A stretch of 34,554 nucleotides of DNA from a virus, in the IMG/VR virus record IMGVR_UViG_3300031772_000145, positions 1-34,554 of that record; one strand, given 5' to 3'. Numbering within the stretch: position 1 is the first letter of the stretch; each line of letters starts with the position of its first letter. The notes beneath the pieces are model-generated. The model was given only the letters and a program-made list of their open reading frames with translations, did no database searches and was not told the DNA's origin. The position numbers were made by a program, and so were the translations under genes. This document shows positions 1,952 to 33,745 of this stretch, one piece after another.

Positions 1952-2053
1952 ACTGTACATTTTACATCTCCACGAGTTCTGGCGCGATTGGCAGGACGCT
2001 GCGGGCTGGGCGCTGCAATTGCATCCTGGCTGGTGGGATCTGAAGGAGGAGAA

Positions 2054-2278
2054 ATGGTAGACTATTCCGAGATTGATTGCCCTGACTGTCCACATTGGCT
2101 CGCCGTATGTGCTAGTCGTAGTTGTCGTGGCACAGTCCTGGCCCGCTATCGTAGCTCGCAGGATGCACTTGCCACGGCGCTAGGAGAGCTGCGCGAATTG
2201 CGCAAGGAACTCAAATTGTGCAATGAATCGGCTCAGCAAATGACTGATGCCCTAGCCAATGTCCTCCTGGCCGAATGA
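2054..2278 (+). CDS. Cys-rich N-terminus plus coiled-coil protein, 74 aa
   Basis: ATG at 2054 has an AAGGAGGAG ribosome site at 2042-2050. Residues 9-24 contain CPDC, then two further cysteines, suggesting a small metal-binding knuckle. Residues 35-70 (ALATALGELRELRKELKLCN) form a predicted coiled coil. Start chosen over the upstream in-frame ATG at 1988 because of the strong ribosome site. Function unknown. Confidence 0.65.
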   Translation: MVDYSEIDCPDCPHWLAVCASRSCRGTVLARYRSSQDALATALGELRELRKELKLCNESAQQMTDALANVLLAE

Positions 2279-2352
2279 TATGTACAAACAAACTCTGTGA
2301 GATGGAAAAAGCGCTCACGGAATTGCGCATGGCAGTACACGAATTGCCTTGA
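2275..2352 (+). CDS. 25-aa micro-protein, coupled
   Basis: An ATG overlaps the previous stop (ATGA, 2275-2278) and reads MICTNKLCEMEKALTELRMA to a TGA at 2350-2352. It has a CxxxxC pair followed by a short amphipathic helix, echoing the architecture of the preceding gene in miniature. Only the overlap and composition support it; it may be a leader-type peptide or a partial duplication. Confidence 0.3.
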   Translation: MICTNKLCEMEKALTELRMAVHELP

Positions 2353-2427
2353 TGTGTCGCGCTAGGTGCGGTGGACTACAACTATCGCACCTACTCATAG
2401 GATAGAGTTATGAGAAGGGAGCAGGAA

Positions 2428-2808
2428 ATGAAGAACCGTTGGATTCTGATCGTGCTTCTGGTGGCATTGCTGTTGGGACCGGCGCAGGGAGCGCAAGCCT
2501 GGGTTCCCCCCAGGATTCCATCTCCGCCACCCGCGATCTCGGTGCAGGTGATGCTTTGCATAGGGAGCCCGGCCGTTGTGTTCTTTGTAGATATCAAGTC
2601 CACCATCCCGATCAAGGACGTAGACGTGTGCGTTTGGCAAGTTGGTGAGTACGTGGGCTGGGGTCCGGAGCTTTTGGACGTGGATTCTGGTCTGCACCAT
2701 TGCCAAGCGCTCTTTGTTCTCCCGCCTGGGAACTATAAGGGGTTGGCCCTGGCCCACTTGGTGACTGGTACTGTCTTGCTGGGATGGGTTGAATTCCAGG
2801 TGCAGTGA
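2428..2808 (+). CDS. secreted hypothetical protein, 126 aa
   Basis: Starts MKNRWILIVLLVALLL at 2428 behind GGGAGCAGG; the in-frame ATG at 2410 lacks such spacing. The first 28 residues are a classic Sec signal peptide ending AQGAQA|W. The mature part begins Pro-rich (VPPRIPSPPPA), followed by beta-strand-rich sequence with three cysteines. Exported phage proteins in this position may act in the periplasm or cell wall, or modify the host surface. No family recognised. Confidence 0.7.
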   Translation: MKNRWILIVLLVALLLGPAQGAQAWVPPRIPSPPPAISVQVMLCIGSPAVVFFVDIKSTIPIKDVDVCVWQVGEYVGWGPELLDVDSGLHHCQALFVLPPGNYKGLALAHLVTGTVLLGWVEFQVQ

Positions 2809-28051: not shown

Positions 28052-28080
28052 TTGACAAACCTAGCTTTCTATGATACAAT
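28052..28080 (+). promoter_or_regulatory. strong extended -10 sigma-70 promoter for the early unit
   Basis: -35 TTGACA (28052-28057), 17-base spacer, -10 TACAAT (28075-28080) preceded by an extended TGA. Expected start near 28087, and the first gene's GGAGGT lies at 28111. Strongest promoter seen in the window; suited to early transcription by host RNA polymerase. Confidence 0.85.
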
Positions 28081-28537: not shown

Positions 28538-28551
28538 CCCACAGCACCCAG

Positions 28552-28576
28552 GCCCGCCGGGTGAGGTGCGGGCAAC
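28552..28576 (+). repeat. intergenic hairpin repeat, copy 1
   Basis: A 25-bp element with stem GCCCGC/GCGGGC and ten-base loop holding GGTGAGG. It lies 15 bases before the start at 28591. Identical to copy 2 at 28823-28847 and similar to copy 3. Confidence 0.7.
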
Positions 28577-28590
28577 GTGGGAGGTAAGCA

Positions 28591-28818
28591 ATGTTCGTAG
28601 TACTATCAGGTTTCGGACGGCTGGAAGGCACGTACCGCTCTCGGCAAGCGGCAGAACGACTTATTGCCGAGATCACACCGGGGGTGAATTGGCAACCGGA
28701 AACAGCGCCACGGATTCTCGATCCGGCGACGGTTCATGCTATGAACGAATACGAGGAATCAGCTCTGGCGCACGCCGCGAGACGCGCCGAATACGGCATC
28801 TGGGGTAGAGTCGCTTAG
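28591..28818 (+). CDS. early hypothetical protein, 75 aa
   Basis: ATG at 28591 behind GGGAGGT. Reads MFVVLSGFGRLEGTYRSRQAAERLIAEITPG..., a short beta strand and a helical middle, ending with a helix (EYEESALAHAARRAEYG). Preceded by intergenic hairpin copy 1 and followed by copy 2. No known family. Confidence 0.6.
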   Translation: MFVVLSGFGRLEGTYRSRQAAERLIAEITPGVNWQPETAPRILDPATVHAMNEYEESALAHAARRAEYGIWGRVA

Positions 28819-28822
28819 TTCA

Positions 28823-28847
28823 GCCCGCCGGGTGAGGTGCGGGCAAC
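28823..28847 (+). repeat. intergenic hairpin repeat, copy 2
   Basis: Identical over 25 bp to copy 1. It begins five bases after the stop at 28818 and lies 52 bases before the start at 28900. Confidence 0.7.
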
Positions 28848-29169: not shown

Positions 29170-29181
29170 CAGTCAGCCCAG

Positions 29182-29205
29182 GCCCGCCGGGTGAGATGCG
29201 AGCAA
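29182..29205 (+). repeat. intergenic hairpin repeat, copy 3
   Basis: Differs from copies 1 and 2 at two positions (one in the loop, one in the stem), and shares the preceding CCCAG with copy 1. It lies 21 bases before the RHH gene's start at 29227. Confidence 0.6.
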
Positions 29206-30845: not shown

Positions 30846-31171
30846 CAATGTTGCTGCCCCTGCATGTGACGCCGAGGCTCGCGGCTACCATCGCGCAGGG
30901 CAGGGGGATACTGAGCCATCCAGGAATATCGACCGGCGGCGAACTGATGGACTATGCCAATGGAACGGATAACCTAGACGGCGGGGGCGGCACAGTTTGC
31001 GGCGTAGCGCAATCAGGAAGCGCGCGGCTACATATGTGCCGAGGTTGCTGGTTCAAATCCAGCCGCCGCAAATGGGCGGGGCCTGGGGTTTCCAGGCAAA
31101 ATCAAATAGAGCTCAACGGATTGCCACGCGCTGCCCGGGCAACCGCCCAGCCCGGGCTACTTGACCACTAG
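30842..31171 (+). CDS. doubtful ORF overlapping the tRNA-like gene
   Basis: GTG at 30842 overlaps the previous stop (GTGA), and the frame stays open to 31171. The first part (LLPLHVTPRLAATIAQGRGILSHP) could be a short coupled protein. From about residue 57, however, the sequence GVAQSGSAR ... GCWFKSSRR is the typical conceptual translation of a tRNA, so most of the frame is not convincing as coding. Confidence 0.2.
   Translation: MTMLLPLHVTPRLAATIAQGRGILSHPGISTGGELMDYANGTDNLDGGGGTVCGVAQSGSARLHMCRGCWFKSSRRKWAGPGVSRQNQIELNGLPRAARATAQPGLLDH
30998..31071 (+). tRNA. tRNA-like gene with atypical anticodon loop
   Basis: Exact tRNA geometry: acceptor TGCGGCG/CGCCGCA (30998-31004 with 31064-31070), TA linker, D stem GCGC/GCGC with a loop that keeps GG and the terminal A. 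The anticodon stem has four pairs plus a T-T mismatch, the variable loop has five bases, T stem GCTGG/CCAGC and T loop TTCAAAT (31052-31058) are standard, and the discriminator is A. CCA is not encoded. The seven-base anticodon loop (31030-31036, ACATATG) lacks the U33 and would place ATA in the anticodon position. The arm around it is nearly palindromic (GGC-T-ACATATGT-GCC). It may be a decaying, specialised or decoy tRNA. Confidence 0.7.
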
Positions 31172-31875: not shown

Positions 31876-31904
31876 TTGACAAGCGCGGGGAAGTGTGGTA
31901 GAGT
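31876..31904 (+). promoter_or_regulatory. sigma-70 promoter for the replication genes
   Basis: -35 TTGACA (31876-31881), 17-base spacer, -10 TAGAGT (31899-31904). The predicted start near 31911 coincides with the first base of the leader's first stem, so the transcript would begin with structured RNA. Confidence 0.75.
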
Positions 31905-31910
31905 GTGACC

Positions 31911-32007
31911 GTCGGGGTGAAGCGTTCGAGGTCGTTTTTGCTTTAGGCAGTCAGGCAGGTAGCGCACGCCCACCCCGACAAGTGGACGGCCTCGCGTTAC
32001 CTGCCTG
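31911..32007 (+). promoter_or_regulatory. pseudoknot-forming 5' leader (riboswitch-like or replication-control element)
   Basis: Two long inverted repeats interlock. Arm A GTCGGGGTG (31911-31919) pairs with A' CACCCCGAC (31971-31979). Arm B (31952-31965, CAGGCAGGTAGCGC) pairs with B' (31994-32007, GCGTTACCTGCCTG), 14 pairs with one G-U. The order A-B-A'-B' is a pseudoknot or a set of mutually exclusive hairpins. It lies just upstream of the GGAGG (32019-32023) of the next gene and before the helicase gene. No known riboswitch class recognised. Confidence 0.7.
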
Positions 32008-32028
32008 TTCGCATTTCTGGAGGCATGA

Positions 32029-32358
32029 ATGGATATCGCAGCACATCGCACCGAGATATGGCGTCAAATTGGCATCGTAGAGGATGCCCTGTACAAATTG
32101 TCAACTGTGCCGCATAGTTACCGCCTCGATATGATCCGGACCACGACTGCAGACCTGCAGGCAAACATCAAGCACTCAGAAAGCATGATAGCCCTGGGTC
32201 GCATCGAAGGTCATGAACTGCTGGAAGCGCTCGACTACAAGGACGCCATGCGTAATGAATTGCGCACTCGCGGTGACGCGCCGTCCTTGGCTGAGGAGTT
32301 GGCAGGGCCGCGGCCCCTCCGGCATAGACATACAGGCCGGGGCGGGCTAGACCTATGA
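32029..32358 (+). CDS. hypothetical helical protein ahead of helicase, 109 aa
   Basis: ATG at 32029 with CTGGAGG five bases before; an ATG at 32025 is in another frame and leads only to a short ORF. Helical: IAAHRTEIWRQIGIVEDALYKL, LDMIRTTTADLQANIKHSESM, GHELLEALDYKDAMRNELRTRG, then a basic Gly/Arg end. Coupled to the helicase by ATGA. Expression probably set by the pseudoknot leader. It could be a replication accessory or loader. Confidence 0.6.
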   Translation: MDIAAHRTEIWRQIGIVEDALYKLSTVPHSYRLDMIRTTTADLQANIKHSESMIALGRIEGHELLEALDYKDAMRNELRTRGDAPSLAEELAGPRPLRHRHTGRGGLDL

Positions 32359-33617: not shown

Positions 33618-33620
33618 CGT

Positions 33621-33722
33621 GTAACGAAATGTTACCTGGTAACGTTACCAATGTTACCGGTAATGTTACCCCCCCTATATCTTTAGGGGGGTAACAAGTA
33701 ACATTCAAAAAAGAGTGGTAAC
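33621..33722 (+). repeat. GTTACC/GGTAAC iteron cluster, candidate replication origin
   Basis: At least nine GTTAC/GTAAC motifs in about 100 bp, several as GGTAAC (33638, 33690, 33717) and GTTACC (33631, 33644, 33653, 33665), including a GGTAACGTTACC palindrome (33638-33649). Two copies form a perfect 10-bp hairpin (33665-33674 with 33686-33695) with an AT-rich loop (TATATCTTTA). Located between the helicase gene and the next CDS. Typical of an initiator-bound origin, or a multi-copy operator. Confidence 0.7.
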
Positions 33723-33745
33723 ATTCAGAGACAAGGGGGGAGACA

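Follow-up and report, generated by a model that had tools for sequence, protein, structure and literature searches.

The replication locus and its leader

The DNA analysed here, referred to throughout as the window (IMGVR_UViG_3300031772_000145), is a 34.6-kb fragment of a tailed phage, in which the portal, terminase and tape measure genes lie on the strand opposite to a replication operon. The operon consists of a promoter, a leader, a short gene and a gene for a RepA-like replicative helicase, and the positions of these features are collected in Table 1. An earlier reading of the locus, made from the sequence alone, had placed the start of transcription at the first base of a stem arm, here the 5' arm of helix A. 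This placement agrees with the promoter TTGACA-17-TG-TAGAGT, which puts the predicted +1 at the first G of GTCGGGGTG. A second strong TG-extended promoter, TTGACA-17-TACAAT (11/12), was observed at 28052-28080 of the window, at the head of the early genes, with no comparable leader structure downstream of it.

Table 1. Features of the leader and of the replication genes in the window, with the basis for each
Feature	Position	Strand	Basis or remarks
Promoter	31876..31904	+	-35 TTGACA 31876-31881, 17-nt spacer, TG-extended -10 TAGAGT 31899-31904; layout common to L051
Predicted transcription start and helix A 5' arm	31911..31919	+	Helix listing, covariation
Helix C 5' arm	31927..31935, extendable to 31937 with G-U	+	Helix listing, p values, covariation
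Constant linker GCUUUAGGCAGU	31940..31951	+	Lengthens helix B at the outer end; pairing of the linker's CUUU with the Shine-Dalgarno is possible
Helix B 5' arm	31952..31965	+	Helix listing, covariation
Helix A 3' arm	31971..31979	+	Helix listing, covariation
Helix C 3' arm	31986..31994, extendable to 31984	+	Base 31994 common to C' and B'
Helix B 3' arm	31994..32007	+	Helix listing, covariation
Constant UUYGC (UUCGC in the window)	32008..32012	+	After B', opposite GGCAGU
Shine-Dalgarno GGAGG	32019..32023	+	Sequence
Short gene, 109 aa	32029..32358	+	ATG at 32029; ATGA overlap between its stop and the helicase start
RepA-like replicative helicase, 420 aa	32355..33617	+	C-terminal HTH; family and structure matches

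Coupling of the short gene to a RepA-like helicase, also part of the earlier reading, is borne out by the ATGA overlap and by the matches of the downstream protein. This protein contains an AAA/RecA-like domain (PF13481, 8e-19) and is nearest, among solved structures, to the hexameric helicase RepA of RSF1010 (1g8y, E 4e-4), of which it is a recognisable relative with an added C-terminal HTH. The 109-aa protein encoded by the short gene matched no known family.

Repeats were found directly after the helicase gene at four loci. In the window, GGTAAC/AATGTTAC repeats and a CCCCCC...GGGGGG hairpin occupy 33618-33740; the corresponding regions hold AGTTACA repeats in contig L051 (about 70-215, - strand), GTACGC repeats with a similar G-run hairpin in L209 (about 1250-1395, - strand) and GACGCATGCGTC repeats in L072 (about 1220-1350). 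These repeats probably mark the replication origin. A GTTACC motif within the leader, which resembles the repeats after the helicase gene, occurs at chance frequency and was set aside. Elsewhere in the window, CCCGCCGGGTGAGGTGCGGGCAA is present in three copies that are 83-93% alike (28547-28575, 28818-28846 and 29177-29205), every copy lying in one of the short gaps that separate small early genes. A tRNA-like gene lies at 30997-31072 (Rfam tRNA, 50.9 bits); it was called by ARAGORN as tRNA-Tyr with the odd anticodon ATA, and its anticodon loop looks irregular.

Three crossing helices in the leader

We listed all helices of at least 6 bp in the region 31905-32070, and the three longest and strongest were B, C and A. 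Helix A (GTCGGGGTG with CACCCCGAC) is made up of nine Watson-Crick pairs, and helix B (CAGGCAGGTAGCGC with GCGTTACCTGCCTG) of 14 pairs, including one G-U. These are the 9-bp and 14-bp stems that the sequence-only reading had described as an interlocked double stem, with the 3' arm of A inside the loop of B, and both were found at the positions it had given. The crossing of A and B therefore stands, but the number of helices does not, since a third helix, C (CGAGGUCGU with ACGGCCUCG), which crosses both A and B, had been overlooked. The order of the arms, A-C-B-A'-C'-B', is that of the ABCABC pseudotrefoil topology and occurs in both the window and its relative L051. Apart from one base (31994), the arms of the three helices are disjoint. 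Both of the non-Watson-Crick pairs in the set are G-U when the RNA is read from the + strand, whereas the opposite strand would have A-C at these places, which favours the + strand RNA as the folded molecule. The position of the knot just before a ribosome site, as proposed earlier, is seen in the GGAGG and ATG that follow it.

When drawn as a three-way junction of A, C and B with the distal ends bridged and not capped, the structure would require joining strands of 7, 0 and 5 nt in the window and of about 10, 3 and 3 nt in L051. The strands running from tip to tip in this geometry would be about 6 and 16 nt long in the window, and 3 and 19 nt in L051. Such a triple knot is possible provided that A and C lie side by side, and we consider that all three helices probably form in one molecule at the same time.

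A relative with compensated arms

A portal profile run against bacterial genomes led to contig L042, from a metagenome-assembled genome labelled Verrucomicrobia ADurb.Bin018, whose terminase and head protein are 63-68% identical to those of the window. A replicase search of the whole ADurb.Bin018 assembly then gave contig L051, with a replicase 50% identical to that of the window (E 4e-127), and we infer that L042 and L051 derive from one phage. The other cellular portal relatives of the window phage are in Herpetosiphon (Chloroflexota), whereas L042 and L051 are in a Verrucomicrobia bin; this bin may have a stray phage on board.

The only promoter-like site in L051 (TTGACA-18-TG-TATGAT, 11/12) is upstream of the replicase, and the gap from the -10 element to helix A is 6 nt in both the window and L051. 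Helix A of L051 (GGGGACACGGU...ACCGUGUCCCC), which begins six bases past the promoter, is accompanied by helix C (CUCAGCGAG...CUCGGUGAG) and helix B (CAGCUCCGGCGC...GCGCCGGAGCUG) in the same A, C, B order as in the window. After the leader come a Shine-Dalgarno and a gene of 86 aa, which, as in the window, runs into the replicase start with an ATGA overlap. In a scan of the whole contig on both strands, helices A and B of L051 form the top crossing pair, and none of 1000 shuffles reached their score. Upstream of this leader, at 2053-2499 (- strand), lies a 148-aa gene whose translation has, by eye, the look of a SpoU/TrmH-type RNA methyltransferase.

Because MAFFT could not align the arms, pairs were counted on arms registered by hand, and for helix C the register between the window and L051 is one of several possible. 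The sequence-only reading had held that arms changing without compensation would speak against the structure; the comparison with L051 did not refute it on this count. Of the 30 comparable pairs, 29 are kept between the window and L051, 18 of them with changes on both sides, two with a change on one side and nine unchanged; the single broken pair is a G.G in helix C. When the 3' arms of L051 were shuffled, none of 200,000 trials reached 29 pairs. The downstream short proteins of the window (109 aa) and L051 (86 aa) show no recognisable homology, so that the architecture of the leader appears better kept than the gene that follows it. On the strength of these two members, one of which is on a metagenome-assembled contig, the leader is very probably a real and conserved structured RNA element.

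Chance tests on the fold

Crossing helices were scored by stacking energy only and compared with 1000 dinucleotide shuffles. The best crossing pair in the window leader scored -50.3 kcal/mol and the best crossing triple -67.9 kcal/mol; neither was reached by any of the 1000 shuffles, the best of which gave -42.7 for a pair and -50.3 for a triple. In a 118-nt scan, the observed pair and triple were both at the top of the window. When spans of up to 130 nt were scanned over 0.93 Mb of strand-sequence, covering the window and related loci, the triple was still first, the next triple scored -65.2 kcal/mol, and some crossing pairs outscored A and B. With a runner-up triple this close and pairs stronger than A and B, the score by itself is strong without being overwhelming. 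Among the other strong crossing sites, those in L072 proved to be palindromic repeats after the replicase gene and those in L019 AGGTTGGCA repeats, and they were not considered further. Helix C was the best helix available between the two loops, with p values of 0.0024 in the window and 0.013 in L051. Ordinary nested folding of the window leader was unremarkable (z of -0.83). The decisive support for the predicted leader structure is the covariation in the relative.

The constant element and the ribosome site

Comparison of the window with L051 revealed a near-constant stretch, CUUU(A)GGCAGUCAG...CUGUUYGC, which comprises the linker before helix B and the tip of B and lies beside the Shine-Dalgarno; the arms vary freely. 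In both folds, the tip continues helix B by way of a small internal loop, and the pyrimidines of the linker are within pairing reach of the Shine-Dalgarno. This linker pairing is short and partly G-U. In nested folds the Shine-Dalgarno was mostly paired, with a mean unpaired probability of 0.21 in the window and 0.33 in L051. Blocking the arms of A and C changed these values to 0.52 in the window and to 0.23 in L051. The Shine-Dalgarno is thus partly freed in the window and not in L051, which makes the link between the knot and the ribosome site a weak one.

Search for known classes and further members

The sequence-only reading had recognised no named RNA class, and we likewise obtained no match in Rfam 15 for the window, at both thresholds, or for the L051 leader. 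The leader is a so far unnamed RNA element. BLAST of the region or of the leader against phages and plasmids gave no match, and the replicase and short gene, used also as a two-row profile, detected no relatives in the viral contig collection. Relatives of the terminase and portal were present among the viral contigs, without a match to the replication module of the window, and were discarded. Three motif scans of the viral contigs returned coding repeats or chance matches, none of them with the helices (for the third scan, among the matches listed). A nested covariance model applied to 393 and 400 Chloroflexota genomes gave weak matches to coding DNA or to a terminator-like hairpin, again without the helices. 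A third member of the leader was therefore not found in the phage, plasmid, viral contig and bacterial genome sets searched. No similar leader was seen at the more distant replicases inspected in Chloroflexota, and since many related helicases are without it, the leader is not essential for that gene family.

Discussion

On balance, we favour the view that the leader acts in cis as a translational gate for the short gene and, through coupling, for the helicase. The RNA would fold during transcription into one compact triple pseudoknot, in which helix A would pair the very 5' end and shield the message from 5'-end-dependent decay. We propose this sealing because A starts at +1 in both members and because, in bacteria, mRNAs with a paired 5' end decay more slowly (PMC3997798). 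The constant linker would extend helix B, and its CUUU would pair with the Shine-Dalgarno, leaving the start site partly closed. A factor acting on the constant element, more likely a phage or host protein than a small molecule, would open the start site, and translation of the short gene, and of the helicase by translational coupling, would be set by the state of the leader. The sealing step is suggested by the anatomy of the leader, and the step at the ribosome site by weak pairings. Taken in full, the proposal is of a hitherto undescribed class of RNA: three helices, each at full length, would cross simultaneously as a true pseudotrefoil that is less than 100 nt long and starts at +1, and this knot would switch the translation of a phage replication operon by way of a constant recognition element at the tip of one helix; this complete version is plausible, and we put it forward tentatively.

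The knot could be a passive stabiliser that does no more than close off the 5' end and make the message long-lived, with translation initiation left unregulated. In both members, the first base of helix A coincides with the predicted +1, and RppH and RNase E require single-stranded 5' ends (PMC3997798), as this explanation would have it. However, a simple 5' hairpin would suffice for such a role, and neither the crossing of three helices nor the constant stretch that the tip of B places next to the Shine-Dalgarno is accounted for; we regard this explanation as rather unlikely. Alternatively, A, C and B could exclude one another as states of a switch, one state having, for instance, B extended across the ribosome site and the other A with C. 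The nested minimum in the window, which pairs part of a C arm with the region of the start codon, is what such a switch might produce, but the C arm of L051 shows no such pairing. Exclusive states normally have a whole segment in common, whereas the arms here have one base, and both members preserve all three helices and their order, so that we find alternative pairings distinctly unlikely.

A small-molecule riboswitch of a new class, with the constant tip of B and the linker as its pocket, would account for a compact pseudoknot with freely varying arms and a near-constant core adjoining the Shine-Dalgarno. Phage replication genes would be unusual targets for a riboswitch, however; the constant core is short, Rfam has no matching class and the operon carries no hint of a metabolite, which makes this reading highly unlikely. 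The sequence-only reading had also likened the leader to attenuators and to plasmid-type replication-control RNAs. We found no terminator hairpin with a U run on the + strand of the window leader and none in the L051 leader, and an attenuator is therefore unlikely, because no terminator follows the knot. A primer, or a leader under plasmid-type antisense control at an origin, is brought to mind by the RepA-like helicase gene that the leader precedes and by a 9/12 promoter-like site at 32214-32185 that points back to the leader. This site, the one candidate antisense promoter over the leader in the window, is at chance frequency and has no counterpart in L051; antisense control is thus unsupported, as no promoter is common to both members. 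The origin-type repeats, moreover, lie 1.6 kb downstream of the leader, after the helicase gene, and a replication RNA of this kind is scarcely probable. Chance interleaving of inverted repeats is next to negligible as an explanation, for although this GC-rich DNA has crossing pairs of comparable stacking energy at other places, the shuffles did not reach the observed scores and L051, an independent relative, repeats the architecture with compensated arms and with an unchanged distance to a promoter of the same type.

A translational gate in the leader of a replication gene can be compared with several known systems. The pseudoknot of the T4 gene 32 mRNA, an autogenous operator, likewise belongs to the leader of a gene for phage replication; it lies before the ribosome site and has been proposed to set translation (PMC3014915). 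It is one two-helix pseudoknot followed by an A+U-rich unstructured tract that is coated by gp32 (PMC3014915), whereas the window leader has three helices that cross from +1 onwards, is without an A+U-rich tract and leaves just 11 nt, UUCGCAUUUCU, between the 3' arm of B and the Shine-Dalgarno. Moreover, the gene that it would control is a helicase preceded by a short gene, and the two leaders have no sequence relation. In the E. coli alpha-operon (S4) and rpsO (S15) leaders, a pseudoknot controls translation of the first gene, and of later genes by coupling (PMC10931766), as is proposed here. The comparison, made on sequences, genes and mode of control, shows that sequences and genes differ, and the repressor is known for the E. 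coli leaders. The window leader, although it would function in a similar manner, belongs to neither the T4 nor the E. coli operators. The ABCABC pseudotrefoil has three helices each of which crosses the other two, as in the window leader, and denotes a topology class and not a family (PMC3390330).

In natural RNA, it is rare for three long helices to cross mutually: a survey recorded 51 sequences with the ABCABC pseudotrefoil against 1688 of H-type (PMC3390330). In the literature examined, we found no phage replication leader of this shape. Being small, beginning at the predicted +1 and backed by compensatory change, the leader offers probing and structure determination a clean target. Such leaders escape screens that rely on nested folding, as the low nested z of the window leader illustrates. 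Should it prove true that the leader gates the replication genes, phage replication would have in it a compact regulator beyond those of the well-studied T4 systems.
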